Source: Powellomyces hirtus
Taxonomy: Eukaryota > Chytridiomycota > Chytridiomycetes > Spizellomycetales > Powellomycetaceae
Assembly (NCBI GenBank): GCA_025526995.1
Contig: JAHLKG010000009.1
Location: 806,001 to 870,000, forward strand
DNA length: 64,000 bases
Reading direction: 5' to 3'
Shown here piece after piece: positions 25,466 through 64,000 of this stretch (the first letter of the stretch is position 1; every line of letters starts with the position of its first letter). The position numbers were made by a program, and so were the translations under genes. The notes beneath the pieces were generated by a model. That model had not been told where the DNA came from. It saw only the letters and a list, made by a program, of their open reading frames with translations, and made no database searches.

Positions 25466-28400
25466 ATGGCACGTAGCACCAGGAACAGCCCAATGGCAGT
25501 AGGAGAACCCAAAGTCGACACACTGACCGACAACCCCGTCGCAATGTTAGCTGCACAATTGGCGGAGACCCAACGCCTACTGCAGGAACAGATCGCAATG
25601 GGAGAGGCCCGCTTCAAAGCCCTTCTCTCAAGGATTCCGACTCCAGTCCAACCAGCAGTTGCAACACCGCAGGTCGACATCATCCTGGCGGAAGAAAACC
25701 GCGCACGAATGCAAGCCGAGAAAGAACGCCGCGAGAACCTTCGCAAGCAGCTGACACACTTCGACGGAAAAGGGAACAGTGAAGAAATGGTGTCAAAGGT
25801 TGATGAGTTCTTGAAGGTCCACACGCGCTACCTTGAGGCAACCGACTTCAGGACGGACCACCGGGACGTCGACCACATCTCGGGGTACCTCAAGGAAACC
25901 GCCGACGAATGGTGGCATATGCTCAGAGATGCCGGCGACCAGCCCACGACATTGGAACAACTCACGAGGATCCTCTGCATCCGCTTCTACCCCGCCAACT
26001 TACGAAACACCGCAGAAGCAAAGATGACCTGTGGAGATCTCTCGGTGTTCACCGAGGAGAAGATCACCTACCGGGAGGATACCGTACCGTTCATGGTCAC
26101 GCCGATCAGGGTCAATGCCATACTGGGCTTGCCATTTATATTGGGGCTGGACGTCCGAGGGCTCTTCGACCAAGAGGGCTTTCCAACGATGACGTTCTAC
26201 CACGACGGCCAGACCCTCAGCCTTCGAGCCAAATCGACCAACCGCCACTGGAAAGCACCGTCCGCGTGCGCCGCCCGCCTACTCTCCCCACGAGAGGTAC
26301 GGCCCCGCAGATTCCAGCCGGCGAAGCCAGCACTCAATACAGAGGGAATCTACACGGCCAAGCAATGGAAACGCTTGATGAAGAAGGGCGAGATCACTGG
26401 AGTTTTTGAGGTACACATTGTAGATATGATTCCAGTCGCAGAGGCTTAATTCGTACGGACGGTCGACGCCAAGAAAAGGGCAATCTTGGAGGAACGATGC
26501 CACACCAACACTGAAGCCAAGGCGGCAGATCAAGAGGACCCGCTAGAGGCGCTGGCAGCCGACCATCCACTCCGACCGACCCTAGAGAAATATGTCACAA
26601 CGCTATTCACCGAGCAGTCAGGCATGCCTCCGGACCAAGGCGAGGACAATTTCACCATTCAGCTCAAACCCGGCTCGAAGCCCGTGATGCAGCCACTCCG
26701 GCACTTGAGCCCTGACAAACTGGACGAGCTTGGCCAGCAGATGCAGCGTTTAATGGACAAGGGTTGGATCTCACACTCTCGCAGTCCGTGGGGCGCGCCC
26801 GTCCTATTTGCCCCAAAGAAGGACGGCGGCCTACGCTGCTGCATTGACTACCGGGCACTGAACAAGATGACTCACAAGGATGCCACGCGACTTCCGAACC
26901 TCTCGGAGCTGCGCGACAGGCTTGTCAACATGCGGGTATTCACCGCGATCGACATCCGCGACGTGTACCACTGCATCATGATCCGACCGGAAGATAGGGA
27001 GAAAACAGCGTTCCGAACACGTTTTGGACATTTCGAATACAATGTTCTACCTTTCGGCTTAACTAATGCACCTGCTACATTCCAGCGACTAACCAACAAG
27101 CTCTTGGGCGACAAGTACGACGCCTACGTGATCTCGTACCTCGACGATATTCTCATATTCAGCACCGACATGAGTTCGCACATTCAGCACGTCAACGAGG
27201 TCCTCAAGACCTTGACGGAACATCGCCTCCACGTCAAACCCAGCAAATGTCAATGGGCGGTTGACGAAGTCGAGTTCTGCGGCCACCGAGTCGGCAAGGA
27301 TGGCCTGAGTATCGCCCCCTCCAAGGTGACCGCGGTCCGGGAATGACCTCGCCCGACCAACCCCCTGGAGCTCCTTAGCTTCATGGCCCTCGTCAACTAT
27401 GTCAAGGAATACATCCCCGAGTATGCACAGATTGCCCTACCCCTAACAAATCTGCAATCCGGCAACCGCCCATGGCAGTGGGGTGACGAGGAAGATCGAG
27501 CGTTCAATCACTTAAAGGAATTATGCTCCTCGGCACCCACCCTAGCGTACTTCGACCCGGCGCTCGACACCTACTTGTTCACGGACGCATCGGGCTACGC
27601 CTACGGCGGATGGCTGGCACAACCGGCCAAAGGGGATTTCCCTTACCCTCACCCACTACCAACCACCAAATCGGGCTTAGCCAACCTCCCGCAACTTCGC
27701 CCGGTGACATACTACTCCCGCAAGATGCAACCCGCCGAGACTCGATACCCCGTGCATGAACAAGAACTACTGGGATTAGTCAAATCCATACGCGCCAACC
27801 GCCATTACCTCATCGGCCGCCCATTCCGCGCGTTTGTTGACCACAAATCCCTGATCTACCTCCAGGAACAACCCCACCTGTCACGTCACCAAGCAGGCTG
27901 GGTCAAGTTTCTCCAACACTTCGATTTCTCAGTGGAATACCTCCCCGGCACATGGAATTCGGTCGCCGACTTCCTCAGTCGCGACCCAACTTACGCCCCC
28001 AAGTGTGCAACCTGCCAGGCCAAGATCGACGTGGTCACCGCCATTGTGCAGACGGAGAAGCCCGTCCCGACGCACATGCCGACCGATGCGGACTGAACCC
28101 AAGCGCTCGCATCGGATGCTTTTGGCCAAAACATCTTACTAACCATCAACAGTCCACCGGAGAACCTATCCGGCCATGCACGCCGATTCCGGACAGTGGA
28201 CTCCCCTCCGCACCGCTTCTTGATGTACCATGACCATCGGTACGTCCCCGACAGCTTGCGGGGGCCACTCCTTCAGATTCATCACGACTCCTTCGCGAAC
28301 GGTGGTCACTCCGGTGTCCAACAAACGCTCGCCAAACTTTTGGAGTCGTACTATTGGCCTCATATGGAGCGTGATGTGTACCAATATGTCCGCACCTGCC

Positions 28401-29683
28401 CTACCTGCCAACGTCACAAGCGAACCACGCCGATCGGTTTCCTCCGCAGCTTACCGATCCCCGACGCTTGTTGGCAACAAATCGGCATGGATATATTCTT
28501 CCCCACGTCAGGCTCTAAGGGGGGGGAACCTCGGGTAGAGCCCGACGTGACAAAGAACCCTTTGCACCACACCGGCGAGAGACTGACCAAGACGGCGGAC
28601 ACCGTACTCCTCATCGTTGACTACCTTTCATGCCGCGTGATACTTCTACCTACTAACACACGCGCTACAGCTCCGGAGACGGCTCAACTCTTTCTGGAAC
28701 AGGCATTTTGCCACATGGGGTTACCCCACACCATTGTGAGCGATCGGGACCCCAAGTGGCTATTAGAATTCTGGCGGTACCTCATGCGGGCACTCGACCT
28801 CAAGCAAGAACTCTCGTCGGCACGACACCAACAGACCGACGGCAAGGCGGAGGATGCCATCAAGACGATCAAGGGAATCATGGGCCCCTTTCTTGACTAT
28901 GCCGGCTCCAACTGGAAGAGTTTACTCCCCACACTTGAGTACAACTACAACCGAACGCCGCAGACGTCGACGGGACTATCCCCTTTCGAGATTGACCTAG
29001 GCCGCGTTCCCCGGGGACCGAACCAATGGGTAGCACCTAACCCCAGAGAGATGATAAGACAATCGGCACGAACCGCCGTGGAGAGACGGATTAAGGAATT
29101 TGCTGACGTGAGTCGCATCGTGCAGCAACGGCTCCGAGACGCACAGGACCAGCAGGCAAAGTACTATGACTGCAAGAAGCACACGGAAGCATACTGAGAG
29201 GGTGACAAGGTCTTACTTCATCGTAAGGGTATTGTGATTACCAGCGTCACCACAAGGAACAAAAAGCTGGCTGAACAATGGATTGGGCCATTCACAGTAC
29301 GCGGCAAGGGCCCGCATCCTGACACCTACAAGCTCGAACTACCCAAGGAGTTCACCGGGTTGCACCCAGTCTTTCATGTCAGCATTCTGAGACGTTACCA
29401 TGACCCGGGCGGTACCCCATACAGACAGGTCACCGCCCCGCCTGAGCCCGAGAAGGACGAAGACGGTCAGGAGACCTACCAAGTGGACAAGATCCTAAAT
29501 GCCAGATGGCACAGGAACACCGAGCAGTTCTTAGTCAAGTGGACAGGTTACGACAACACCCAGAACACGTGGGAGCCGTATGCACACGTGAAGGGAACGA
29601 CTGCACTGGAAGAATGGCTCCGGGAGCACCCCGGAGAGGACCGCGGCCAAAGGCTAGCGGCCAGGCGACGTAAGAAAACCTAG
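25466..29683 (+). pseudogene. gag-pol: gypsy-1 gag-pol, decayed chromovirus polyprotein
   Basis: Gag starts at the ATG at 25466 (MARSTRNSPMAVGEPK). At 26015-26023 Gag jumps straight into the post-protease region through a 917-bp deletion that removed the end of capsid, the CCHC knuckle and the protease active site; the junction stays open because the deletion also corrects the gag/pol frame offset. Then reverse transcriptase (VISYLDDILIFS, intact), RNase H (LFTDASGYAYGG), integrase (HHDS...HSGVQ zinc domain; GMDIFF, SDRDPKW, and E in TDGKAEDAI) and a C-terminal chromodomain (EQFLVKWTGYDNTQNTWEPY, about 29520-29580). Stops at 26447 (TAA), 27344 (TGA), 28094 (TGA) and 29195 (TGA) each correspond to a sense codon in gypsy-2 and differ by one C-to-T or G-to-A change. 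Confidence 0.92.
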
Positions 29684-29749
29684 ATAGCGAGCTGTACCGT
29701 AAATTAACAAGAGAGATGCTACTTGAGGTAGAGGACATTATAGTGCGAG

Positions 29750-30600
29750 ATTCCGGCATCGTTGGACGATGGCCGGAGGCTGCTGGGCAGCATACCTCGC
29801 TGGGCAAGATGCCGGCATTGTTGGACGATGGCCGAAGGCTGCTGGGCAGCATACCTCACTGGGTGAGATGCCGGGATCGCTGGGCGATGAGCCGACGGCT
29901 TGCCGATGCAAGGTGACCGGCACCAGATTTGCATGGCGGCGTACCTCGAGACCCGCGGGGACCATGGCCATGGTACATACCTACGCGAAGGGGAAGAGAA
30001 GGGCTTTGGCCAAGATACCGGCATCGTTTGACGATGGGCCGAAGGCCGCTGGGCGGCATACCTCACTGGGTGAGAAGGGTGATGCTGGGCATCGACCGGC
30101 TGCTGATGCAAGGTGACCGGCACCAGATTTGCATGGCAGCGTACCTCGAGACCCGCGGGGACCATGGCTGTAGTACATACCCATGCGAAGGGGAAGAGAA
30201 GGGCTTCGGCCAAAATACCGGCATCGTTTGACGATGGGCCGAAGGTCGCTGGGCAACATACCTCGCTGGACGAGATGCCGGGATCGCTGGGCGATGAGCC
30301 GAAGACTGTGAGGCAGTAGACCTCATGAGGTGAGATGCCAGCATCGTTGGACGATGGCCAAAGACTGCGAGGCAGTAGACCTCACGAGGTGAGATGCTGG
30401 CATCGTTGGACGATGGCCGAAGGCTGCTGGGCAGCATATCTCGCTGGGCGAGATGCCGGGATTGCTGGGCAATGAGCCAAAGACTGCAAGGCAGTAGACC
30501 TCACTAGGTGAGATACCGGCATTGTTGGACGATGGCCGGGGAACCGCTGGGCGGTCTTCCCAACGGGGAAGTGTGATGCAGGGCATCTACCATGAGCACC
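29750..30600 (+). repeat. Hairpin array in gypsy-1 3' region
   Basis: Tandem short inverted repeats with 5-6-bp arms and a 3-nt spacer, mostly TGG, such as CATCGT-TGG-ACGATG, GCTGC-TGG-GCAGC and CTCAC-TGG-GTGAG. The unit of three hairpins (about 60 bp) recurs with variations. It is the counterpart of the better-preserved array in gypsy-2; many arms here are broken by CpG-to-TpG/CpA changes. Confidence 0.85.
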
Positions 30601-30804
30601 ATAGCCGGGAGGAAGCCGAGTGACATTGGACACAGCGGACGCATACGAAATGCTACAAGGCTCAAGGGAGCACAGCGATGAGAAGGCAAGTACAGCGATG
30701 AGATTGTGGGACTGAATTTGATTATACGGGCCGAAGGCCAGGCCCCGAAGGAGCAACAGACAACAAGTGAAAGTATGTACAAGAAGGAGGGGGGGGAGAA
30801 CTAA

Positions 30805-31544
30805 TCAACCAATCTTGGTGAAGGAGAATTGGCACCGGTTGCCGTGGCACCGGTCGCCCAACCCGCACCGGAGGGGGGTGTAATTTGCCACATTCATCTC
30901 GCTGCGAAGAGAGCTGAGTTAGTCAGGTAAGACAGCAGCAGGCCGAAGAGTACTACTTACGCACGGACGTGGCCCATGCAGTGGAGATGGTTGCATGGAA
31001 ACATGCGGAGGTCCGCTCCGACATGGTTGCAGCCAGCGAACTGGCACCCGGCGGGGATGGCCGCAAAGAAGAGGACCCGGTCGCAGTGGGGGGCGCCGCA
31101 CGTCAACTGGCCCTGAGGGCCGTCGTTCTGGAAAGCAAAGGAACAAGGGAACTACACTGTTAGGAAGACATCAGGCCGCCTCTCAGCGAAGGGCAAACAT
31201 ACCGTGTCGTCGGACGCCGCCACAATGCAGGGCCGGCACACCAGATGGTGGCATTCAGACATAAACATCTTGCTCTTGCGGAAGCGGCGGCACTTCCAGC
31301 AGGCGGACAAGTCGGCCGACCTCTCGGAGGTGGACTTTTCATGGACCGAGGGGTCCTGGAGACAACAAGGGAAGACGGGGAACATGAGACGAGTTGCCAC
31401 AGCCACGGATGGGCACCGATCCCTACTTACCCGGGCGGGCTGGGCCCGCTTGGTTGCGCCCTTTGCGAGTTGTTGGGTGGGCCGGCGCTTGCCCGCGGTG
31501 GTGGTGTCGGAGGGGAGAGGAGAGTTGTTGGCGACGTCGGCCAT
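30805..31544 (-). CDS. Antisense RING-like zinc-finger gene in gypsy-1 (four exons)
   Basis: Reads opposite to gag-pol, between the chromodomain and the 3' end. Exon 1 from the ATG at 31544 (MADVANNSPLPS) to a GTAAGTAG donor near 31427. Exon 2 (DPSVHEKS...) carries CWKC-x12-CHH-x2-C-x2-C, the first half of a RING pattern, and ends at a GTATGT donor. Exon 3 has CGAPHC, CQFAGC and FPCNHLHCMGH, ending at GTAAGT. Exon 4 has CGLGDRCHGNRC and ends FSFTKIG then TGA at 30805-30807. Every intron has GT/AG ends and the frame is kept. About 150-170 aa, rich in Cys and His. Not part of a normal chromovirus; role unknown. Confidence 0.6.
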
Positions 31545-31618
31545 GTTGTTTGTGTATGTATGTGCGTGTGTGTGTGATGTGTGTGTGTGTCGAGCTACAA
31601 AGGAAAGAAGAGCGAGAG

Positions 31619-31893
31619 TGTAATGAGGCGTGGCTCACCAGCCTAAGCCTAGACACGCGTCGGGAAGGGTCCCGCGCGAGATGGATGCTAGCGTCAGCAT
31701 CCCGAAGGGTACTAGACCTCAGGGATGGCCACGGATGGCCATCACGTGACCAGGGCCGCTCCGCGGCCTAGAAGAAAAGTAGGAATGCTCCGACGAGGGC
31801 GCATTTAGGACTTAGAGATCTTACAGTAGAATTAGAGATAGGGAATTCCTGAATAGAAGACTAGACTCTGGCAACGGACCTAGTATTGTTACA
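31619..31893 (+). repeat. gypsy-2 5' LTR
   Basis: 275 bp, TGTAATGAGG to TATTGTTACA. About half a dozen differences by eye from the 3' LTR at 39369. Confidence 0.93.
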
Positions 31894-31921
31894 TGGTAGC
31901 ACCACCCCGTAGACGACAACA

Positions 31922-33133
31922 ATGGCACGTAGCACCAGGAACAGCCCAATGGCAGTAGGAGAACCCGAAGTCGACACACTGACCGACAACCCCGTCGCAA
32001 TGTTAGCTGCACAATTGGCGGAGACCCAACGCCTACTGCAGGAACAGATCGCAATGGGAGAGGCCCGCTTCGAAGCCCTTCTCTCAAGGATTCCGACTCC
32101 AGCCCAACCAGCGGTTGCAACACCGCACGTCGACATCATCCTGGCAGAAGAAAACCGCGCACGAATGCAAGCTGAGAAGGAACGCCGCGAGAACCTTCGC
32201 AAGCAGCTGACACACTTCGACAGAAAAGGGAACAGTGAAGAAATGGTGTCGAAGGTCGATAAGTTCTTGAAGGTCCACACGCGCTACCTTGAGGCAACCG
32301 ACTTCAGGACGGACCACCGGGACGTCGACCACATCTCGGGGTACCTCAAGGAAACCGCCGACAAATGGTGGCAAATGCTCAGAGATGCCGGCGACCAGCC
32401 CACAACATTGGAAGAATTCACGAGGGTCCTCCGCATCCGCTTCTACCCCGCCAACTTACGAAACACCGCAGAAGCAAAGATGAAGCGGTTGGTTTTCACC
32501 AATAGCATATTGGAGTATATCGCCAAGTTCAATACCCTTCAGGCCCAGATTGCGACACTCGACGACAAGGAGCGGCTTACCCCAAGGCAAGAACGTGACT
32601 ATTTCTTGATGGGATTCTCGACCAACCATGTTGGCCAGCGCATTCGGGACCACTGCTATGCCGCAATCATGAGGAATAATGGCACCGAGATCCCAATCAC
32701 CGAGCTACAGAACGAAGCTCTACTATGCTACAGGATTCGAGGCTATGCGGACGATGTCGCGCGGGTAACCCCCGACGGGAGGAGACGTCAGTACGCTGCA
32801 GTCCAGCCGGCTCAGGTACATTGAGGGAACTATCAAGCACGAGAAAGGGGACGCCACACCTCCTATGGCTCAGGTTGTCCCACACGCGGTATGGACAACT
32901 ACCAAGGGATCTCACGCCGTGAGCGCACCATCTACGACAAACGCCGTGAGCGCAACGAATGTTTCAACTGCGGGGGCAAAGGGCATTACGCCCGTGGGTG
33001 CTCAGCAGGTAAAGGTAAAACCGGTGAGCATAGGACGTTCGCCGCCCCTGTAGAGATCACCGAAGGGTCCAGAGACGAGGCGGCCAGCGACGGGGGCTCA
33101 GTCAACAGCTCGGATTTTCGCCCCAGGTGCTGA
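31922..33133 (+). pseudogene. gag: gypsy-2 Gag with one in-frame stop
   Basis: The ATG at 31922 gives MARSTRNSPMAVGEPE. Residues 100-300 are the Gag capsid-like region (VDKFLKVHTRYLEATDF, DKWWQMLRDAGDQPTTLEEF, RLTPRQERDYFLMGFSTNH). A TGA at 32822-32824 interrupts; the same frame then continues through NYQGISRRERTIYDKRRERN and a CCHC knuckle CFNCGGKGHYARGC to a TGA at 33131-33133. The pol frame is open one base back (-1) over the stop, so pol is probably reached by -1 frameshifting or from a separate start. No ATG opens pol at the overlap. Confidence 0.88.
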
Positions 33134-36100
33134 ACGCTTGCACCATCTCAGTACCCCAACCCCGGATGCAAGACAAGATCCCCACGGACAGACCGGGACC
33201 CCGCATTCACAGGAAGACATTTGTGGTCCACGGGAAGGTACAAGGGCACTTTGCCCGCATCCTAATCGATACCGGATGCAACACCCTGATCATCAGCGAC
33301 ACTTGGGCCGCCAAACACGGCCTCCCGACCTACACCTCCCCAACTCCGCTGGAGGTCCGGTGGGGCGACAGAGCGGGAAACTACGGGGCAACAAAGATGA
33401 CCTGTGGGGACCTCTTGGTGTTCACCGAGGAAAAGATCACCTATCGGGAGGATACCGTACCGTTCGTGGTCGCGCCAATCAGGGTCGATGCCATACTGGG
33501 CTTGCCATTCATATTGGGGCTGGACGTCCGAGGGCTTTTCGACCAAGAGGGCTTTCCAACGATGACATTCTACCACGACGGCCAGACCCTCAGCCTTCGA
33601 GCCAAATCGACCAACCGCCACTGGGAAGCACCGTCCGCGTGCGCCGCCCGCCTACTCTCCCCACGAGAGGTACGACCCCGCAGATTCCAGCCGGCGAAGC
33701 CAGCACTCAATGCAGAGGGAATCTACACGGCCAAGCAATGGAAACGCTTGATGAAGAAGGGCAAGATCACTGGAGTCTTCGAGGTACACATCGTAGATGC
33801 GATTCCAGTCGCAGAGGCTCAATTTGTACGGACGGTCGACGCCAAGAAAAGGGCAATCTTGGAGGAACGACGCCACACCAACACTGAAGCCAAGGCGGCA
33901 GATCAGGAAGACCCGCTAGAGGCGCTGGCAGCCGACCATCCACTCCGACTGACCCTAGAGAAATACGTCACGACGCTATTCACCGAGCAGTCAGGCATGC
34001 CTCCGGACCGAGGCGAGGACAATTTCACCATTCGGCTCAAACCCGGCTCGAAGCCCGTGATGCAGCCACTCCGGCATTTGAGCCCTGACGAACTGGACGA
34101 GCTCGGCCAGCAGATGCAGCGTTTAATGGACAAGGGTTGGATCTCACACTCTCGCAGTCCGTGGGGCGCGCCCGTCCTATTTGCCCCAAAGAAGGACGGC
34201 GGCCTACGCTGCTGCATTGACTACCGGGCACTGAACAAGATGACTCACAAGGATGCCACGCCACTTCCAAACCTCTCGGAGCTGCGCGACAGGCTTGTCA
34301 ACATGCGGGTATTCACCGCGATCGACATCCGCGACGCGTACCACTGCATCATGATCCGACCGGAAGATAGGGAGAAAACAGCGTTCCGAACACGTTTTGG
34401 ACATTTCGAATACAATGTTCTACCTTTCGGCTTAACTAATGCACCTGCTACATTCCAGCGACTAACCAACAAGCTCTTGGGCGACAAGTATGACGCCTAC
34501 GTGATCTCGTACCTCGACAATATTCTCATATTCAGCACCAACATGAGTTCGCACATTCAGCACGTCGACGAGGTCCTCAAGACCTTGACGGAACGTCGCC
34601 TCCACGTCAAACCCAGCAAATGTCAATGGGCGGTTGACGAAGTCGAGTTCTGCGGCCACCGAGTCGGCAAGGATGGCCTGAGTATCGCCCCCTCCAAGGT
34701 GACCGCGGTCCGGGAACGACCTCGCCCAACCAACCCCCTGGAGCTCCTTAGCTTCATGGGCCTCGTCAACTATGTCAAGGAATACATCCCCGAGTATGCA
34801 CAGATTGCCCTACCCCTAACAAATCTGCAATCCGGCAACCGCCCATGGCAGTGGGGTGACGAGGAAGATCGAGCGTTCAATCACTTAAAGGAATTATGCT
34901 CCTCGGCACCCACCCTAGCGTACTTCGACCCGGCGCTCGACACCTACTTGTTCACGGAAGCATCGGGCTACGCCTACGGCGGATGGCTGGCACAACCGGC
35001 CAAAGGGGATTTCCCTTACCCTCACCCACTACCAACCACCAAATCGGGCTTAGCCAACCTCCCGCAACTTCGCCCGGTGACATACTACTCCCGCAAGATG
35101 CAACCCGCCGAGACTCGATACCCCGTGCATGAACAAGAACTACTGGGATTAGTCAAATCCATACGCGCCAACCGCCATTACCTCATCGGCCGCCCATTCC
35201 GCGCGTTTGTTGACCACAAATCCCTGATCTACCTCCAGGAACAACCCCACCTGTCACGTTGCCAAGCAGGCTGGGTCGAGTTTCTCCAACACTTCGATTT
35301 CTCAGTGGAATACCTCCCTGGCACATGGAATTCGGTCGCCGACTTCCTCAGTTGCGACCCGACTTACGCCCCCAAGTGTGCAACCTGCCAGGCCAAGATC
35401 GACGTGGTCACCGCCATTGTGCAGACGGAGAAGCCCGTCCCGACGCACATGCCGACCGATGCGGACTGGACCCAAGGGCTCGCATCGGATGCTTTCGGCC
35501 AAAACATCTTACTAACCATCAACAGTCCACCGGAGAACCTATCCGGCCATGCACGCCGATTCCGGACAGTGGACTCCCCTCCGCACCGCTTCTTGATGTA
35601 CCATGACCGTCGGTACGTCCCCGACAGCTTGCGGGGGCCACTCCTTCAGATTCATCACGACTCCCTCGCGAACGGTGGTCACTCCGGTGTCCAACGAACG
35701 CTCGCCAAACTTTTGGAGTCGTACTATTGGCCTCATATGGAGCGTGATGTGTACCAATATGTCCGCACCTGCCCTACCTGCCAACGTCACAAGCAAACCG
35801 CGCCGATCGGTTTCCTCCGCAGCTTACCAATCCCCGACGCTCGTTGGCAACAAATCGGCATGGATATATTCTTCCCCACGTCATGCTCTAAGGGGGGGGA
35901 ACCTCGGGTAGAGCCCGACGTGACGAAGAACCCTTCGCACCACACCGGCAAGAGACTGACCAAGACGGCGGACGCCGTACTCCTCATCGTTGACTACCTT
36001 TCATGCCGCGTGATACTTCTACCTACTAACACACGTGCTACAGCTCCGGAGACGGCTCAACTCTTTCTAGAACAGGCATTCTGCCACACAGGGTTACCCC

Positions 36101-37055
36101 ACACCATCGTGAGCGATCGGGACCCCAAGTGGCTAGCAGAATTCTGGCGGTACCTTATGCGGGCACTCGACGTCAAGCAGGAACTTTCGTCGGCACGACA
36201 TCAGCAGACCGACGGCAAGGTGGAGAACGCCATCAAGACGATCAAGGGAATCATGGGCCCCTTTCTTGACTATGCCGGCTCCAACTGGAAGAGTTTACTC
36301 CCCACCCTCGAGTACAACTACAACCAAACGCCGCAGACGTCGACGGGACTATCCCCTTTCGAGATTGACGTAGGCCGCGTTCCCCGAGTACCGAACCAAT
36401 GGGTAGCACCTAACCCCGGAGAGATGATAAGACAATCGGCACAAACCGCTGTGGAGAGACGGATTAAGGAATTCGCGACGTGAGTCGCATTGTGCAGCAA
36501 CGGCTCCGAGACGCACAGGACCAGCAGGCAAAGTACTACGACCGCAAGAAGCACACGGAAGCATACCGAGAGGGTGACAAGGTCTTACTTCATCGTGAGG
36601 GTATTGCGATTACCAGCGTCACCACAAGGAACAAAAAACTGGCTGAACAATGGATTGGGCCATTCACAATACGCGGCAAGGGCCCGCATCCTGACACCTA
36701 CGAGCTCGAACTACCCAAGGAGTTCACCGGGTTGCACCCAGTCTTTCATGTCAGCATTCTGAGACGTTACCATGACCCGGGCGGTACCCCATACAGACAG
36801 GTCACCGCCCCGCCTGAGCCCGAGAAGGACGAAGACGGTCAGGAGACCTACCAAGTGGACAAGATCCTAAATGCCAGATGGCACAGGAACACCGAGCAGT
36901 TCTTAGTCAAGTGGACAGGTTACGACAACACCCAGAACACGTGGGAGCCGTATGCACACGTGAAGGGAACGACTGCACTGGAAGAATGGCTCCGGGAGCA
37001 CCCCGGAGAGGACCGCGGCCAAAGGCTAGCGGCCAGGCAACGTAAGAGAACCTAG
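33127..37055 (+). pseudogene. pol: gypsy-2 Pol with chromodomain, one frameshift
   Basis: Protease active site ILIDTGCNTLII (about 33262-33297). Reverse transcriptase: CCIDYRALNKM, VFTAIDIRDAYHC, NVLPFGLTNAPATFQ and YLDN in place of YLDD (AAT at 34519-34521). RNase H: LFTEASGYAYGG with E for the first catalytic D (34957-34959). Integrase: HHDS-x4-H...CPTCQRHK, GMDIFF, SDRDPKW, TDGKVENAI. A one-base loss near 36475 relative to gypsy-1 ends the first frame at KEFAT. The second frame (36480-37055) carries the rest of the integrase and the chromodomain EQFLVKWTGYDNTQNTWEPY, which targets related elements to heterochromatin. Confidence 0.93.
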
Positions 37056-37128
37056 ATAGCGAGCTGTACCGTAAATTAACAAGAGAGATGCTACTTGAGG
37101 TAGAGGACATTATAGTGCGAGATTCCGG

Positions 37129-37960
37129 CATCGTTGGACGATGGCCGGAGGCTGCTGGGCAGCATACCTCGCTGGGCGAGATGCCGGCATCGTTGGACGA
37201 TGGCCGAAGGCTGCTGGGCAGCATACCTCACTGGGTGAGATGCCGGGATCGCTGGGCGATGAGCCGACGGCTTGCCGATGCAAGGTGACCGGCACCAGAT
37301 TTGCATGGCGGCGTACCTCGAGACCCGCGGGGACCATGGCCGTGGTACATACCTACGCGAAGGGGAAGAGAAGGGCTTTGGCCAAGATACCGGCATCGTT
37401 TGACGATGGGCCGAAGGCCGCTGGGCGGCATACCTCACTGGGTGAGAAGGGTGATGCTGGGCATCGACCGGCTGCCGATGCAAGGTGACCGGCACCAGAT
37501 TTGCATGGCAGCGTACCTCGAGACCCGCGGGGACCATGGCCGTAGTACATACCCACGCGAAGGGGAAGAGAAGGGCTTCGGCCAAGATACCGGCATCGTT
37601 TGACGATGGGCCGAAGGTCGCTGGGCGACATACCTCGCTGGGCGAGATGCCGGGATCGCTGGGCGATGAGCCGAAGACTGCGAGGCAGTAGACCTCACGA
37701 GGTGAGATGCCGGCATCGTTGGACGATGGCCGAAGACTGCGAGGCAGTAGACCTCACGAGGTGAGATGCCGACATCGTTGGACGATGGCCGAAGGCTGCT
37801 GGGCAGCATATCTCGCTGGGCAAGATGCCGGGATCGCTGGGCGATGAGCCGAAGACTGCGAGGCAGTAGACCTCACTAGGTGAGATACCGGCATCGTTGG
37901 ACAATGGCCGGGGAGCCGCTGGGTGGTCTTCCCAACCGGGAAGTGTGATGCAGGGCATCT
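37129..37960 (+). repeat. Array of about 27 triloop hairpins in gypsy-2 3' region
   Basis: Examples: CATCGT-TGG-ACGATG 37129-37143; GCTGC-TGG-GCAGC 37151-37163; CTCGC-TGG-GCGAG 37168-37180; CTCAC-TGG-GTGAG 37227-37239; ATCGC-TGG-GCGAT 37248-37260; GCCGC-TGG-GCGGC 37417-37429; GATGC-TGG-GCATC 37452-37464; GTCGC-TGG-GCGAC 37617-37629; ACTGC-GAG-GCAGT 37676-37688; CTCAC-GAG-GTGAG 37693-37705. Stems vary but stay paired while the 3-nt spacer is nearly constant. Spacers between hairpins (GCCGAAG, ATAC, ATGCCGG) repeat too. A longer sub-repeat of about 170 bp (37270-37440 and 37485-37650) interrupts the series. Confidence 0.9.
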
Positions 37961-38176
37961 ACCATGAGCACCATAGCCGGGAGGAAGCCGAGTGACATTG
38001 GACACAGCGGACGCATACGAAATGCTACAAGGCTCAAGGGAGCACAGCGATGAGAAGGCAAGTACAGCAATGAGATTGTGGGACTGAATTTGATTATACG
38101 GGCCAAAGGCCAGGCCCCGAAGGAGCAACAGACAACAAGTGAAAGTATGTACAAGAAGGAGGGGGGGGAGAACTAA

Positions 38177-38909
38177 TCAACCAATCTTGGTGAAGGAGAA
38201 TTGGCACCGGTTGCCGTGGCACCGGTCGCCCAACCCGCACCGGAGGGGGGTGTAATTTGCCACGTTCATCTCGCTGCAAAGAGAGCTGAGTTAGTCAGGT
38301 AAGACAGCAGCAGGCCGAAGAGTACTACTTACGCGTGGACGTGGCCCATGCAGTGGAGATGGTTGCATGGAAACATGCGGAGGTCCGCTCCGACATGGTT
38401 GCAGCCAGCGAACTGGCACCCGGCGGGGATGGCCGCAAAGAAGAGGACCCGGTCGCAGTGGGGGGCGCCGCACGTCAACTGGCCCTGAGGGCCGTCGTTC
38501 TGGAAAGCAAAGGGACAAGGGAACTATACCGTTAGGAAGACATCAGGCCGCCTCTCAGCGAAGGGGAACATACCGTGTCGTCGGCCGCCGCCACGATGCA
38601 GGGCCGGCACACCAGATGGTGGCATTCAGACATAAACATCTTGCTCTTGCGGAAGTGGCGGCACTTCCAGCAGGCGGGCAAGTCGGCTGACCTCTCGGGG
38701 GTGGACTTTTCATGGACCGAGGGGTCCTGGAGACAACAAGGGAAGACGGGGAACATGAGACGAGTTGCCACAGCCGAGGATGAGCACCGACCCCTACTTA
38801 CCCGGGCGGGCTGGGCCGCTTGGTCGCGCCCTTTGCGAGTTGTTGGGTGGGCCGGCGCTTGCCCGCGGTGGTGGTGAGGGAGAGGAGAGTTGTTGGCGAC
38901 GTCGGCCAT
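38177..38909 (-). CDS. Antisense RING-like zinc-finger gene in gypsy-2 (four exons)
   Basis: Counterpart of 30805-31544. The ATG at 38909 (MADVANNSPLP), all GT/AG splice sites, the Cys/His positions (CWKC, CHHLVCRPC, CGAPHC, CQFAGC, PCNHLHC, CGLGDRCHGNRC) and the stop at 38177-38179 are kept. Exon 1 differs from gypsy-1 by two compensating indels (near 38877 and 38818), so residues between them are read in another frame in one of the copies. Whether it is a captured host gene or an element-specific regulator is unknown. Confidence 0.6.
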
Positions 38910-38965
38910 GTTGTTTGTATGTATGTATGTATGTATGTGCGTGTGTGTGATGTGTGGGTGTGTCG
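38908..38965. repeat. TG/TATG microsatellite
   Basis: Runs of TGTA and TG repeats just outside the antisense gene start, also present at 31545-31600 in gypsy-1 with a different number of repeats. Confidence 0.8.
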
Positions 38966-39368
38966 GGCTACAAAGGAAAGAAGAGCGAGAGGGGGGGAGA
39001 TTCAACGGGCAGTACCTTTTAAAGGCTCGACCTGCTTGGGAACGCTCGGAAATTCAGGTGTTAGTGTTTCATCCCCTACGGAGCGCAGCAGATGTCACTT
39101 ATCGAAATCCGCATGGAGGAAGCTACTCGTGATTCATCTAGGGCCCCTGTGAAGAGAGAAATAGACTTTCCGACGATTTTGCGCACCACAAAGGGCAGAG
39201 ACTACCCGTCGGAGACTACCGCGACGCGACCCGCGCCAGGGGCGCCCCCCCAGCCTCATCTTCCCACAACCACGTCAGCATCCGTTAACCCGCTGCCGCC
39301 CGGCTTAGGCAAGCTTCGCCTCGCTGAAGAGATTCGAGCCTAAGAGATAGTCGCAAATCTAAGGGGGG

Positions 39369-39643
39369 TGTAATGAGGCGTGGCTCACCAGCCTAAGCCT
39401 AGACACGTGTCGGAAAGGGTCCCGCGCGAGATGGATGCTAGCGTCAGCATCCCGAAGGGTACTAGACCTCAGGGATGGCCACGGATGGCCATCACGTGAC
39501 CAGGGCTGCTCCGCGGCCTAGAAGAAAAGTAGGAATGCTCCGACGAGGGCGCATTTAGGACTTAGAGATCTTACAGTAGAATTAGAGATAGGGAATTCCC
39601 GAATAGAAGACTAGACTCTGGCAACGGACCTAGTATTATGACA
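39369..39643 (+). repeat. gypsy-2 3' LTR
   Basis: 275 bp; the end is TATTATGACA with a substitution in the terminal repeat. Followed by the GAGAG target duplication. Confidence 0.93.
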
Positions 39644-40024
39644 GAGAGGGGGGAGATCCAACGGGCAGTACCTTTTAAAGGCTCGACCTGCCTGGGAACG
39701 CTCGGAAATTCAGGTGTTAGTGTTTCATCCCCTGCGGAGCGCAGCAGATGTTACTTATCGAAATCTGCCTGGAGGAAGCTACTCGTGATTCATCTAGGGC
39801 CCCTGCAAAGAGAGAAATAGACTTTCCGACGACTTTGTGCACCACGAAGGGCGGAGACTACCCGCCAGAGACTACCGCGACGCGACCCGCGCCAGGGCCG
39901 CCTCCCCAGCCTCATCTTCCCACAACCACGTCAGCATCCGTTAACCCGCTGCCGCCAAGCTTAGGCAAGCTTCGCCTCGCTGGAGAGATTCGAGCTTAAT
40001 AGATAGTCGCGAATCTAAAGGGGG
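39644..40024 (+). mobile_element. gypsy-1 3' remnant after the gypsy-2 insertion
   Basis: Matches 38994-39368 of gypsy-2 (GAGATCCAACGGGCAGTACC versus GAGATTCAACGGGCAGTACC and onward) and runs through a polypurine tract (AAAGGGGG) into the 3' LTR at 40025. This places the two halves of gypsy-1 on either side of gypsy-2. Confidence 0.92.
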
Positions 40025-58241: not shown

Positions 58242-58925
58242 TGTTCGAGATTTCAGACATACTACCACCAACGATCATGAACTCGAGCAATCAAGCGGAA
58301 TCTTGCGTCTCTGTGGAAGCAGAACGAGGCCCAGACCCTTGAGCTCCCACGAGAGTATCCTTCCTCCCGGAACCCGCCCTTCCATGAAGCCCCTCTACGG
58401 TGGATTTCTGTACCTTGTACACTTCAAGAAGACCGTGGATGTAGACTTGTGGTGTCTCTGCTTCCGCAGCCTACCAGCCTGCTCATTGACGTTGCAAAAG
58501 ATAATCGGAAAGTAAACCAGGGCTTGGTCATGTGTAGAGGCACCAATTGGAGTTCACGTTTTCTTCGTGGTGCGATGTGTTCCAGCACCTAATCCGACAT
58601 TTCATCGCTCTTGCTGAATTAAATGGGGATGAGCGACCAGTTATATGTTCCTGACACAGCTTTTTACCTATAAACCCCCCGCGTCGAAACACGACCTGCT
58701 GTCTGGGGTCCCTGCCCTTCTTCGGCGGCGAACCTGAACTAACCTAGAATTCAGAGCTGGGACGGCCGTTCGTACCAGCCAAAATACAGCCGTCCTCCAA
58801 ATTCTGGCCGTTACCATCAGCCGGTGATTCTACCCAACACCCCCGACTCTCGGCAAATGTTCGCGTTGTCATGATGTATCATTTCCACATATACATTAGA
58901 TAGCTTTCCCAAGCAACTCATAAGA
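58242..58925. other. No gene recognised (0.7 kb)
   Basis: Gap before the tRNA-Asp fragment. Only short frames without support. Confidence 0.4.
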
Positions 58926-58963
58926 TCTCAGTTAGTATATTGGCTAGTATCCCCGCCTGTCAT
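58926..58963 (+). tRNA. tRNA-Asp(GUC) 5' half
   Basis: Acceptor strand TCTCAGT (58926-58932), TA, D-arm GTATATTGGCTAGTAT containing a pol III A box, then CCCCGCC and the anticodon GTC at 58959-58961. After the anticodon loop the sequence no longer fits a tRNA: no 3' anticodon strand GCGGG and no T-arm. The matching acceptor and T-arm occur 4.16 kb downstream. Confidence 0.7.
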
Positions 58964-59000
58964 TCGGCGGACCGCGTTTTGGCTTGACTGACGGTTTCAT

Positions 59001-59817
59001 ATGGGTTCGCGTGACTGGCCAAGACTGTGGCAAGCTCTAATCTTTCTTACCGCCTCATCCTCATACGATAAACTCAGCAATCCAAGGAGGAGGCTGCGAA
59101 GGCAATCAGCAAGCCTAAGAAGAAAGTCCAGGTTGTTCCTGAAAAGGCCGATCCCAATGCCAGACGAAGAAAACCTCAGATCACATGGTTGGCGCGTACA
59201 TTTCTATTACCCTGGGGACCTATTGTGGGGCGGGCCATGTCCTGAAACAATGACTGAATTTGTGGGCCCCGCTGCGCCTGACACTGGATGGCGCCGGGTG
59301 AACGTGCTACGCGGGGGTCCCAGAACGCCCACCCCGTTCACTCTCACTCTCAATCGTCACAACAATGCTCTCTCCGAGCATGCCCTCACCATTCGGCTGG
59401 CAACTCCCGCTATGCGGCCACAGATGTGGATCCATGTTACGCTGTCGATGCAATCGGCAGTCTGTGTTGATACCGCAATGCGGACCATTACTCTGGAGAC
59501 TGCGGACATCGAGGTAGCTATCACGCGCTTGTCCACATGGTGGTATGTTTGCTTTTTCTCATATGTTGTCTATGTTTTTCAAGGTCCGCGAAAGGATTTC
59601 ATACGAGCAACATCTGGCAGGGGACACCCGTGAGTGGCGGGTTTTGGGGCGAATGACAGGAGATGCGACCAACTTGGATGCCGCAATGCGGTTGAGAATT
59701 GTCTTGAGGGAGGGAGGGCGTTACGACTTTGTGCACTGCGAGCACGGGGTCCCCTCTGTGGAAACCCTGTTCGAGTATTTTGCAGCGAACACCGCTGCAG
59801 TTTTTTATCTGCTTTAA
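59001..59817 (+). CDS. Unknown gene of the recombinase cassette
   Basis: Two exons are likely: a long first one ending at a GTATGT donor near 59543 (after ITRLSTWW), and a second from about 59582 (VRERISYEQHLAGDTREW...TLFEYFAANTAAVF) to TAA at 59815-59817. The N-terminal part is uncertain. An alternative frame at 59090-59190 reads as a Lys-rich, NLS-like stretch (KEEAAKAISKPKKKVQVV), so an additional intron or a frameshift may lie near 59180. Three or four CCGCAWTGCGG-type palindromes lie within it, in the GCA ATG CGG phase (encoding A-M-R). No family recognised. It is convergent with the recombinase gene. Confidence 0.45.
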
Positions 59818-62427
59818 ATCCGCATATGCGGTATTTTTCTGGTTCTCATTTGCATAATGTACATAATGAAGTCTATCCCCGATTCTGCTGCTGTCTATGT
59901 AATGCCAAACGTAATAGGTCATCCGCATTGCGGTCCAGTTCACGCTAGATCTGCGTGATACTTTGCCATATGTTTTTTCATTGAATCTGGCAACAGCTTC
60001 TTTTCGCACATTGTGCACGCAATGCGGGTGGTGTTGTGCGATAGCTGATGGTGCCGTTCCAGCTTCTCTTTGGTATCCAGAACTGTCCAGCATATCTCGC
60101 ACTGGACTCTGACGAACGGTGTGTGCACTTTCATGTGCTTTGCGAACGAGGAGACGGAGGCCAAGGATTTAATGCACACAGGACAGATGTTTTGAGATCC
60201 ATGCACAGCCACTCTGTGTTCGTGCAGTTCCTCATAGGAGGCGAAAATATCCGCATCTGCGGAATGGCATTCGAGACATTGGAATGATGCCGCTTTGTAA
60301 TTTTGCATCACGGTGATCCAATGCATGATAAACTCTTCCAGGTCAGCAACTTCCGCAATGGGGTTGTCTTCAGCGGCCTCTAGGCCAGCAATCTCCGCAA
60401 TGCGGTTATCTTCCACAATGTGGGATGACTGGCCCGCCCGATTGGCGGTTTCTGCACTTCTCCTGAGCTTCCTTTTGAGGTTGGTGCGTTGCTTCCCGAT
60501 GTCCTTACGTTTTTCAGAAGTGCTGGGCAATTCGGTCCATTCCTCTGTGAGGGAGAGATATTCCGCATTTGCGGTATAAATCTTGTCCAGCTCTTCTTGC
60601 GTCAGTTTCTTGTACGTTCCAGCAAGCGCCCGGTGTTCCTTTGATCCTGAGATAGAGGGGGGTGAAACATGGAGGGGGCCTCTTCCCGTGATCATGGCAG
60701 CTGTATTGATAGTTCTAACATCCCTGCCCAAATAGACATCCGCTATGCGGGAGGATATGGATATCAGTATGATGGGTACAGAGGTTTGTTGACAAACAGA
60801 GTCCATACATACTTGCAATGTTAGAATCAGCTTCATGGTTCAGAGCTCTTCGCATCTCGTGCAAAGCTAGGCCCGAGCCACTGGCATGTAATGCGAAGCC
60901 TTTGCGAAAGCCTTTCGCTGTTACCACTGACGGGTCCAGACCTGCCGCATATGCGGATGACTTGATCCCATCATTCACGGATGAAACACTCGCCTGCATG
61001 TCATTCACCCAGTTCCCTTTAGCGTCCACTTGACAAAGGACCGGCCACTTCTTGGCCTCTTCAGTCAAGCGGAAGTCGCAGGTCCGCAATGCGGTAAGGG
61101 GATTGTCCACAACAAACATGCCGCGTACGAAGAACATTATGAACGTAGCAGTGGCAAGGCATGTGTCAAAGTCGCCAAAGAATGCAGCGGTTGTTTCCAA
61201 TATCTCGGCTGAGTTTCTTACAGTGACCGATTTCAGAAAGTGATACACGACGTCAGCTTTCAGGCTTGGCCTGTCAAGCAAAGTTGGATCCGCATTGCGG
61301 ATGCCAAACGTCACAGACGTGGCTTTCCACCCTGCATGATGGTAACCAAGTACTGAATGTACATGGCCATGTTTATAACCTCTTGCTTCCGCGATCGAAG
61401 AGGGCCTGAGGTTAGACAAGAAAACGTGTTAGATGCTGACTTGATCCTCTCACCATGGAGAAAAGGGGGTCACTTACCGCACACCATTTCCATGCATGGC
61501 ACACATTGCGACAATTGTCCGCAATGCGGAAGCCGCCTTTGCGGGATTTTCTTTTACCGTGTCCCATGTAGCCTTGATCATCAAGCGGAAATCGTCATGA
61601 GTCACTGCTTTGTATGCGTTGACCCGCTCGTTGAAGGTTTTATCTACATGACTCAGATCGAGCAGTAGATTCATGGGCTGATGGAATCGCGCCCGCCGTT
61701 CTTCCTTTGACAGTTCCGCCCATGCGGTACAATTCGCCATCAGAAGAACGCGTGCCAGACGAAGCAATTTCTTGATGGTTTCCTGATGGTACCGATGTTT
61801 CTCAGGAATTTCAAGAAGGTCGCCAGTGTTAGGATCTTCAACTTGAGTAGGGAGGTCAACGTTGTCTTCCGCAGTAAGTTCTATGTCTTCTTCTGCTCCA
61901 ACAAGAAACTGGGTTGTTGCCTCCTCCTGTTCCGCATTGCGGGTGGACTCCGTTTTTTCTGCATCGTACAGAAAAGAGACCCACTCCGAAAGATCATCTG
62001 CAGTGGGGCAGTATGTCCACATAATGTCATTCGAGAAACCCTTGTACTCACAGAACAATGCCCATTGATCGATCGTGACATTGTAGTTCGCAATGGTACC
62101 AGGTGCGATTGAACAGCCCGCAACACGTGCGCGCAGATGCGCAAGGCGAGCCGCTTTTGCGGAATCAAACGGGTTATGGGTGCGCATGTACCTTGTGATC
62201 TTGGCACCATTTTTGAGGAGTGATCGATTATAATTGTGCGTCTCATTGAATGGGACACCAGTGAACGCACGAATCTGTGCGCCAGGAGTGTTTGTTGGAG
62301 TGACCGGCATGACAGGGGGTCCGCCTGGCGGAGATGTCAAAGCGATCCCATGGAGCGACAGATTGCTGGGAGTTATGGGTTGGCCGTTGTCCGGTGCGGA
62401 TACAGCTTGGAGGGTGCCGCATTGCGG
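59407..62427. repeat. About 20 dispersed palindromes, consensus CCGCAWTGCGG
   Basis: Exact 11-mers start at 59407, 59473, 59681, 59933, 60395, 60740, 61084, 61290, 61519, 61932 and 62417 (centre AAT, ATT or TAT). Twelve-base forms (CCGC-4 nt-GCGG) start at 59820, 60251, 60563, 60945, 61533, 61716 and 62151. Near-matches are at 60017 and 60353, and at 60413, where both arms change together (CCACAATGTGG). Spacing is roughly 100-300 bp. They lie in exons of both genes, in the intron at about 60740 and between the genes. Confidence 0.9.
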
Positions 62428-62538
62428 GGGCGTAACAGGCGTAACATCCTGCACTGTCGACAAAGGCCTACGTGCTGGTGTGGTGTTGTTGGTGATGTTT
62501 TCCATTGCTCGTGCGGTGCGGTTGGTGATGTTTTCCAT
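59940..62538 (-). CDS. Crypton-like tyrosine recombinase, probably spliced to four C2H2 zinc fingers
   Basis: The ATG at 62538 starts MENITNRTARAMENITN. Exon 1 (to about 61475) has a SAM-like core-binding domain: GTIANYNVTIDQWALFCEYK. It joins by GTAAGT/CTCAG to RPSSIAEARGYKHGHVHSVL. The catalytic domain has R in LTALRTCDFR, KGFRKGF at the HxxR box (Lys for His), then H and Y in ALNHEADSNIASMYG. A short intron near 60790-60745 can join it in frame to SDVYLGRDVRTINTAAM, a Lys/Glu-rich helix, and four C2H2 fingers: CLECH...H-x4-H, CPVCIKSLASVSSF, CEICWTVLDTKEKLE, CTMCEKKLLPDSMKK. Stop at 59940-59942. Cryptons are eukaryotic mobile elements using such recombinases. The fusion is inferred from splice signals; the fingers could be a separate gene. 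Confidence 0.72.
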
Positions 62539-62898
62539 TGTTTCCCAGATGGATAAAAACGTGGGAACACGGAAGATAGAAAGCAGCCAGTTGCCATTAC
62601 ATGAAGGAAACAGAGAGCACGAGGAGGAGAGCACCTCACCACGAAAGCCAAAGTGTCAAAGCTATTGATTTATTGAGATTAGCGCTTGTCCTGACATTTT
62701 GGAGCCTAGATTCAGATTCTCATGTCTTCCGCGACGCGCGACTAAGCCACCTGACTGAGGACAACGTTAGGAATGAAATGTTTCGCAAGTTGAAGACTTA
62801 AGAACGTGTTTATGGTCGCTGTGTTGGGCCTGAGCCTCAAAGATCATTCTTATTGTACACGGCGTTGGATGTTACTGTAGTGGTCGCCAATCACATCA

Positions 62899-62917
62899 CC
62901 AGGGGGAGACCCCCTGG
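62899..62917. repeat. Perfect GC hairpin
   Basis: CCAGGGGG-AGA-CCCCCTGG, an 8-bp stem with a 3-nt loop, followed by a C-run. It lies in the otherwise gene-free stretch 62539-63123 between the recombinase start and the tRNA 3' half. Confidence 0.85.
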
Positions 62918-63123
62918 ACCCCCCAGCATTTTGGACCTCTTTCCGTTCCTTCTTTTTCTCTATGAGAGACTGGTCGGATAGATACAGTATACCTGTCGTT
63001 GACATTTGAACGGGGCGTTCCTTAGCCTTCGAATGCATGGCTCCCTCCCGGTTGCAATGCATTTGAATGCTAAGCCACATCTCGCTTTCCGCGAGACTGT
63101 GCCCAGCTCTAAGTAGAAGGAGA

Positions 63124-63157
63124 GCCGGGTTCGATTCCCGGACTGAGAGCTTTTTTT
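63124..63157 (+). tRNA. tRNA-Asp 3' half with pol III terminator
   Basis: T-arm CCGGG-TTCGATT-CCCGG (63125-63141; includes a B box) and acceptor strand ACTGAGA (63142-63148), which pairs perfectly with TCTCAGT at 58926-58932, then a G discriminator and a run of seven T at 63151-63157. The D-arm and anticodon arm are missing just upstream. Confidence 0.7.
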
Positions 63158-63840
63158 GTTTTTCTTTGCATATTCGCAGACGATCTTATGAAAGGCGGGA
63201 GCCACTCACTCTTAGTTCATTTCGGAGACATGGTCACATAGAAGGTCGAAGGGAATCGATTGTGTGAGATCATGGGTTGCGAGAATGTGGAGTAGTACTC
63301 AGGCAGGTGTGGGGGACTCGTGGTTAGTCCAATCCAAGTAGCGTCGGAACAAAAACAGTAGCAACTATGTATGAGACCAGATGATACAATGGCGGCGGTT
63401 GCAAATGTTTTTATGTTTGCCTGTCACTGAGCCCAGGACCCAGACCGCAAATACTTGCATATCTTCTAATACAAGACCGCTAATACGTGCACATATTGGA
63501 CGAGGACCCAAGCCTCTTAGATACTGGCTAGTATCCGAGCAGCTTCTTTCGTTTTTCTTTGCAAATTCGCAGGCGATGTTATCAAAGGCGGGGACCACTA
63601 TTAGTTCGTTGTCGAGATTCTCAAGGTGTGAAATCATTGGGTCGTGAGAAGCACAGCCCTGTGGGGTAGTAATGGGGACTTGGACAGACCCAAGCCAAGG
63701 ATGTGAATAGCGTCCGAAGAACAAAGAATAGTACCAACTACGTATGAGGACCAGATCATACACCGCCGTCGACTGCAAATGTCTTTGTGCGAACCCTGGA
63801 AGCGTGTGCCCCGCAAGGTTATGGTCTTGTTTCCACACTT
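63150..63840. repeat. Two diverged direct copies of the tRNA-Asp downstream unit
   Basis: 63158-63420 (TTTTTCTTTGCATATTCGCA...) and 63548-63800 (TTTTTCTTTGCAAATTCGCA...) align over about 250 bp. The second copy is preceded at about 63517-63540 by TACTGGCTAGTATCC, a tRNA-Asp D-arm remnant. So a unit made of tRNA-Asp plus flank has been duplicated and has decayed. No gene recognised to the window end. Confidence 0.65.
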
Positions 63841-64000
63841 GTGGTTACAATAAATTGCTTCTAAGTGTCTTCACCGGAAAGCACGACACTCCGCGACTAA
63901 CAGAACACTGCATTGAATCGACGTGCTTCACTCCATCAGCGACAACTTTCGGAGGCCAATATCGAATCTCCTGTCCTGCATATCACCAAGCCATCTCCGT

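Follow-up and report, generated by a model that had tools for sequence, protein, structure and literature searches.

Why does one short near-palindrome recur through both genes of a mobile element, in all three codon phases and beyond the stop codons? The question arises in a stretch of 64,000 nucleotides, here called the window, from the chytrid Powellomyces hirtus (GenBank assembly GCA_025526995.1, contig JAHLKG010000009.1, positions 806,001 to 870,000 of the forward strand; positions are counted from the first letter of the window). It holds an element, inserted in a tRNA-Asp gene, with two convergent genes, one for a small protein of no recognised family and one for a probable tyrosine recombinase with four C2H2-like fingers. 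The initial annotation of this DNA had counted about 20 copies of CCGCAWTGCGG in 59407..62427; we found 19 places of the form CCGC-N3/4-GCGG in this interval, 12 of 11 bases (3-base spacer) and seven of 12 bases (4-base spacer), perfect arms in all 19 being the search definition (Table 1). The eleven 11-mers of the annotation were recovered as nine exact CCGCAWTGCGG and two CCGCTATGCGG, while CCGCCTGGCGG at 62321 had been omitted; the seven 12-base forms and a variant changed in both arms (60413, CCACAATGTGG) were present as described. Our reading, tentative and held at somewhat less than even confidence, is that the sites are an array of DNA binding sites under selection, most likely for the element's own factor, with binding predicted from sequence.

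The palindrome array

Dinucleotide shuffles of the array region gave a mean of 0.09 places of CCGC-N3/4-GCGG, with a maximum of 2 in 300 shuffles. Exact CCGCAWTGCGG occurs at nine places, all in 59473-62427 (shuffle mean 0.03). The annotation had noticed none elsewhere in the 64 kb, which holds for the exact form and fails for perfect arms at the same 3- or 4-base spacings, which occur at five places outside the element. In 127.6 kb of comparison sequence (14 loci taken by place, plus the window minus the element) the loose pattern was found eight times, the densest 3.1 kb holding three. One-mismatch forms of the sites are at chance (3, with 2.6 expected), and palindromes of this geometry show no enrichment when built from other arms (34 vs 28 +/- 5), so the sequence of the arms matters and not the stem alone.

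The sites are regularly spaced (mean 167 bp, median 173 bp, coefficient of variation, CV, 0.42, p 5e-5), also when only the 18 strict sites are used (p 3.5e-4) or three near-sites are added (CV 0.49, p 8e-4); helical phasing was not significant at any period tried. Every site falls within one of the two genes or shortly after it, and 16 are wholly coding (13 in the recombinase gene, 3 in the small gene). They occupy three codon phases and non-coding DNA; the codon readings given earlier (PQCG at 62417; RNA at 61932 and 61290; ALR at 61519 and 61084) were all confirmed. The site at 60740, previously placed in an intron, does touch intron 2 but straddles its 3' splice site in the gene model, and those placed between the genes (59820 and 59933) are indeed non-coding, but lie just behind the two convergent stops, 59933 being the last base of the site at 59923. 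A by-product of base composition, codon choice or repeated peptide has a vanishingly small probability: one pair (60353/60395) does sit within a short repeated peptide (EDN-RIAE / EDN-PIAE), but neither the dinucleotide shuffles nor synonymous shuffles of the recombinase gene (1.0 on average, see below) approach the observed numbers, and the spread over phases and non-coding DNA speaks against it as well.

Read on the recombinase-sense strand, 18 of 19 sites have A as the fifth base, which lies outside the pattern definition, giving 5'-CCGCA-N2/3-GCGG. Five sites of the element are asymmetric at this base, as are two independent sites near a decayed relative of the small gene on C11 (described below), and all seven point in the same DNA direction (p 0.016), though the genes that hold them lie on opposite strands, a pattern more easily explained at the level of DNA than of RNA. 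RNA hairpins formed by both genes' transcripts are accordingly improbable, the more so than any other functional alternative weighed here: all 19 sites lie where stems would form in either transcript, but the asymmetric sites are sense in the recombinase gene (4) and antisense in the small gene (1) and the C11 relative (2), there is no enrichment of palindromes with other arms, and pairing stops at the arms, the next pair being Watson-Crick in 4 of 19. The earlier proposal of frame independence and selection at the DNA level is supported: invariant arms, free spacers, a shared DNA orientation whichever strand carries the gene, and arms kept in the decayed relative suggest that the palindromes act as DNA and not via the reading frame, and the arms, spacers and direction together with the regular distances point to protein binding.

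Coding sequence and the two proteins

The 13 sites of the recombinase coding sequence compare with a mean of 1.0 and a maximum of 6 in 3000 synonymous shuffles. The protein itself would allow 17 sites under any synonymous coding, against a mean of 4.0 in 300 permuted proteins, so the sites seem to have altered the protein besides its codons; that is, a DNA word appears to have moulded the recombinase as well as its codon choice. In the small gene the excess is slighter (3 sites, where synonymous shuffles average 0.32 and likewise reach 3). The six coding 12-mers all read xCC GCA NNN GCG Gxx, in one phase (A-x-A) with a free middle residue; the free third position of their alanine codon is always A (GCA in 6/6, vs 26 of 70 Ala codons outside the sites). 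The usual Cys-to-His spacing of a C2H2 finger is x12; zinc finger 1 is C-x2-C-x16-H-x4-H, and the 12-mer at 60251 lies exactly in the four extra residues.

This last fit, the 17 permitted sites and the single phase of the coding 12-mers are what a selfish micro-palindrome of about 12 bp, spreading within the element by insertion and tolerated since a 12-bp unit preserves the frame, would leave behind. Such an origin is nevertheless unlikely. Seven sites in the recombinase coding sequence and three in the small gene are 11-mers, whose lone insertion would shift the frame; flanking bases are equal in 10 of 19 sites, about 6 being expected, with no clear target duplication; no halo of decayed copies surrounds the sites; the C11 relative aligns without a gap in the sites 59407 and 59681; and elsewhere in the genome the exact motif shows no excess. 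That insertion alone gave rise to the sites is made less likely by the ungapped alignment and the in-frame 11-mers, and we keep it as a rival on account of finger 1. The multiplying micro-hairpin of the initial annotation is likewise disfavoured (palindromes in general not enriched, one-mismatch copies at chance, frames broken by 11-bp units), with the hint from finger 1 remaining.

The product of the minus-strand gene (823 residues) is a probable tyrosine recombinase, judged from R-P-S-S, K-G-F-R, L-N-H and S-M-Y-G, recognised by eye in catalytic order. Its only profile support is a weak XerA-type match (E 0.0099) over the stretch from box II to Y; a genome-wide search at E up to 1 had no Phage_integrase match, and PHROGs had none for the recombinase or the small protein. 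The four C2H2-like fingers at its end gave weak Pfam matches. For the small protein, Pfam and PHROGs profile searches were without convincing match. A sequence search of the PDB gave a single match (E 1.5), not a recombinase. A second copy of the recombinase was not found in the fungus' own genome, in which the finger part had five weak matches to other finger-like frames (E 0.002 to 0.23).

Three stretches in or beside these genes recur elsewhere. A fragment of the small gene lies at C2:1893205-1893333 (83% identical DNA; window 59156-59313, L065 1630-1474). Directly before the start of this gene, the 78 bp of window 59077-59154 match C17:454588-454665 at 95% identity; they may derive from a host gene and could be a captured fragment. 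Upstream of the recombinase gene, 46 bp (62617-62662) are 91% identical to C31:240005-240050 and C7:340834-340879.

Table 1 Features of the window. Sites are listed on the recombinase-sense strand.
Feature	Position	Strand	Basis or remark
Mobile element, 4,142 bp	58977..63118	.	intact loci join 58926-58976 directly to 63119 onward
Interrupted tRNA-Asp(GTC), 5' part	58926..58976	+	100% identical to intact C6 gene
Interrupted tRNA-Asp, 3' part	63119..63149	+	comparison with intact loci
Element right end	62873..63118	.	76-78% identical to right ends of C6:135224-135522 and C28:300960-301242
Small gene, exon 1	59157..59513	+	open frame; splice junction matched by intronless C11 relative
Small gene, exon 2 with stop	59584..59817	+	same basis as exon 1
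Probable tyrosine recombinase, exon 1	61478..62538	-	gene model
Probable tyrosine recombinase, exon 2	60798..61405	-	boxes I (R-P-S-S) and II (K-G-F-R) and H and Y motif, recognised by eye
Probable tyrosine recombinase, exon 3, four C2H2-like fingers and stop	59940..60742	-	
Site CCGCATAGCGG	59407..59417	-	
Site CCGCATTGCGG	59473..59483	-	
Site CCGCATTGCGG	59681..59691	-	C11 relative keeps arms intact
Site CCGCATATGCGG	59820..59831	-	12-base form; behind small-gene stop
Site CCGCAATGCGG	59923..59933	-	behind recombinase-gene stop
Site CCGCAGATGCGG	60251..60262	-	12-base form; in zinc finger 1, between second Cys and Phe
Site CCGCATTGCGG	60395..60405	-	
Site CCGCAAATGCGG	60563..60574	-	12-base form
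Site CCGCATAGCGG	60740..60750	-	spans 3' splice site of recombinase intron 2
Site CCGCATATGCGG	60945..60956	-	12-base form
Site CCGCATTGCGG	61084..61094	-	
Site CCGCAATGCGG	61290..61300	-	
Site CCGCATTGCGG	61519..61529	-	
Site CCGCAAAGGCGG	61533..61544	-	12-base form
Site CCGCATGGGCGG	61716..61727	-	12-base form
Site CCGCAATGCGG	61932..61942	-	
Site CCGCAAAAGCGG	62151..62162	-	12-base form
Site CCGCCAGGCGG	62321..62331	-	sole site of 19 without A at position 5
Site CCGCAATGCGG	62417..62427	-	

Relatives, the genome and the tRNA-Asp insertion

A decayed, intronless relative of the small gene lies at C11:232102-232554 (48% protein identity, an internal stop, partly in 86-bp tandem copies). Aligned at three sites of the window, its arms are identical in 22 of 24 bases, its spacers in 4 of 9 and the remaining bases in 196 of 351 (Fisher p 2.5e-4); one of the three sites is still perfect (CCGCGTTGCGG). 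The common ancestor probably had these sites already, and fewer changes have since accumulated in the arms than around them; decay at the neutral rate, which the annotation had named as contrary evidence, is not seen in this one relative found, with its three sites only. In the 5.8-kb stretch on C11, perfect arms occur at four sites, of which two are tandem copies of one another; at about 1340-1510 of locus L064, which covers the relative, two of the 86-bp copies carry the site CCGCCAATGCGG and a third is decayed.

The annotation had also suggested a genome-wide count. In the 29.26-Mb genome the exact 11-mer occurs 21 times, nine in the element and 12 elsewhere, a chance level by comparison with the reversed control (10); a similar density throughout the genome, which the annotation had likewise named as contrary evidence, is thus not seen for the exact motif. 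The array is concentrated in the window element, with a few further sites beside the decayed C11 relative, and as the host genome outside the element has no surplus of the exact motif, its binder would be encoded by the element. Binding by a host factor that the element exploits, for example a fungal dyad-binding regulator or a chromatin protein, is about as unlikely as the selfish micro-palindrome. Fungal Zn2Cys6 regulators typically bind everted CCG/CGG dyads, the spacing of the array is nucleosome-like, and looser forms are in excess genome-wide, mildly for CCGC-N3/4-GCGG (1462 vs 1168) and moderately for CCGCANNGCGG (133/123 vs 89/83), part of the latter coming from the nine exact element sites, each counted on both strands. 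Against a host factor stand the exact motif at chance level outside the element and the make-up of the excess of CCGCANNNGCGG (234 forward places in the genome vs 148 in the control): 78 of the 234 are the perfect palindrome CCGCAATTGCGG (1 in the control). As a genome-wide host motif CCGCAATTGCGG was rejected: 13 of 15 inspected places (e.g. L048, L050-L061) lie in one repeated element or transposon family whose members share at least 1.3 kb with one another, and the window element lacks this form.

The insertion itself could be read from empty sites at C6:1028660-1028765 and C2:1872636-1872740 (both minus strand), found by searching the fungus' own genome with window 58900-63900. The junctions CCGCG|TTTT and AGAA|GGAG sum to the empty site, with neither duplication nor base loss. 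The intact C6 gene was called by ARAGORN (introns allowed up to 30) as tRNA-Asp(gtc) of 82 nt with a 10-nt intron, and 9 of 9 intact copies were called likewise; no tRNA was called in the window, as expected for a split gene. At the gathering threshold, Rfam called three other tRNAs in eight loci and none of the tRNA-Asp genes.

Of the fourteen tRNA-Asp-like genes seen, five are interrupted, the one in the window among them, and nine are intact. The four inserts outside the window contain four of these intact genes, inversely oriented. The inserts at C6:134837-135522 and C28:300592-301242 close with a sequence resembling the right end of the window element, after which comes the tRNA 3' part; at C28:325228 the 3' part was not found, and at C19:310514 only its end. 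Each of the four (L035 7338-8023; L036 1593-2243; L037 1729-2019; L038 2056-1677) holds a complete inverse variant tRNA-Asp by ARAGORN, which looks as if it were a replacement of the gene broken; the same variant also occurs without a split neighbour (L035 1036-1121, L039, L040). The left ends of two of these short inserts (L035 7385-7427; L038 2011-1967) are 80-81% identical to window 62368-62412, inside the recombinase gene; this stretch adjoins a GGGAG similar to the tRNA insertion point, which might reflect use of a secondary site. A separate part of the window, about 26000-40000, is G+C-richer (about 57%) and repeats CCGCTGGGCGG at 30046, 30544 and 37418.

The recombinase has a finger tail and the insertion point CCGCG^GGAG contains CCGCGG, both arms overlapped, perhaps by chance. 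Both would suit accessory recombinase sites serving transposition (synapsis or target immunity) instead of expression, which we consider a shade less likely than either the micro-palindrome or a host factor. Against such a role, no site falls in the terminal 430 and 691 bp of the element (p 0.0025 vs uniform placing), and none in the scanned stretches of the other tRNA-Asp inserts, two of which have related right ends; the array is therefore not needed in cis for their presence in tRNA-Asp genes.

A predicted binding-site array and its nearest parallels

In the binding-site reading, a sequence-specific protein would bind the arms as a dyad or as a pair of half sites, and the arms would be kept for that. 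The binder may be encoded by the element, as the finger tail of the recombinase or as the small second gene, the four-finger domain being a plausible candidate. The bound array would mark the element's own genes with about one site per nucleosome-sized repeat, and this marking might keep them expressed or free of silencing, as VANC does on VANDAL elements; escape from silencing, suggested by the likeness to VANC, is the weakest step. The full picture, in which the element wrote a dense, directional and nucleosome-spaced array of a binding word into its own coding sequences, its proteins adapted and its genes became marked as self along their length, is correspondingly more doubtful than the binding-site array itself, and we offer it as a possibility.

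Several observations weigh against this reading. Binding by the element's proteins is only predicted, and the AlphaFold models are poor (pLDDT 34 for exon 2 and 52 for the fingers). Many dimeric proteins do not tolerate a one-base variation of the spacer such as that seen here. Two of the three sites compared on C11 have one arm mismatch each, and all three lie in A-M/L-R codons, so they may have been kept for the protein. The looser forms CCGC-N3/4-GCGG and CCGCANNGCGG are in excess genome-wide, as given above; five scanned stretches of other tRNA-Asp inserts hold no palindrome sites; and the genome yielded only one full copy.

If the reading is right, a mobile element would overlay a second, DNA-level code on its protein genes and pay for it in amino acids. 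Self-marking arrays found in the literature are mainly non-coding; this one would be a gene-body self-mark in a tyrosine-recombinase element, and two genes, one word and one insertion site would make a compact, testable system in which to study how selfish DNA distinguishes itself from that of the host and may evade silencing in fungi. Of further interest are the insertion in an intron-bearing nuclear tRNA gene and the other inserts with their own complete tRNA-Asp gene.

No relatives in other genomes emerged from a single scan of viral contigs and another of prokaryote genome contigs. Among the literature titles and abstract openings listed, no description was found of a similar palindrome array or of a tyrosine-recombinase element inside a nuclear tRNA gene, and of the literature containing the motif words none was on this subject, judged by title. 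The palindromic elements of Rickettsia are palindromic units in protein genes, about ten times longer and spread through the genome, whereas the units of the window are 11-12 bp and concentrated in one element.

Dada elements have a fixed insertion place in tRNA genes, and the window element likewise lies inside a tRNA gene; Dada, however, uses a DDE transposase and makes target duplications of 6-7 bp (PMC3706591), whereas the window element has a probable tyrosine recombinase, no target duplication and no transposase among its Pfam matches. Starships are fungal, 15-700 kb long and moved by a tyrosine recombinase, and some insert in a defined RNA gene, e.g. 5S rDNA (PMC12134995). The window element resembles them as a fungal element of probable tyrosine-recombinase type in a defined RNA gene and differs in its size (4 kb) and in having no DUF3435 (PF11917) among the Pfam matches of the recombinase core at E up to 10. 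Cryptons, in their fungal group, combine a tyrosine recombinase with a C-terminal DNA-binding part and lack terminal inverted repeats (PMC3212892). The window element agrees in its probable tyrosine recombinase, its C-terminal part of DNA-binding type and its lack of terminal inverted repeats; it differs in having no GCR1_C in the recombinase (Pfam at E up to 1, searched with the entire product of a previous splice model), no direct repeat of 4-6 bp at its ends, a second convergent gene, the tRNA-gene insertion and the palindrome array.

The nearest known arrangement found is the VANC motif array of the VANDAL transposons of Arabidopsis, in which short motifs of the same orientation, dense in the element and rare elsewhere, are read by an element-encoded protein (PMC5735166, PMC10398659). 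VANC motifs have 8-9 bases and lie mainly in non-coding tandem repeats, and the word palindrome is absent from PMC5735166. The motif of the window differs in being a near-palindrome in a recombinase element, with binding here predicted only, and in lying mostly in coding sequence (16/19) instead of tandem repeats, which itself counts against the reading. It agrees in being short, dense in its element, rare in the rest of the genome and of one orientation (18 of 19 sites, and 7 of 7 asymmetric ones, both small numbers).

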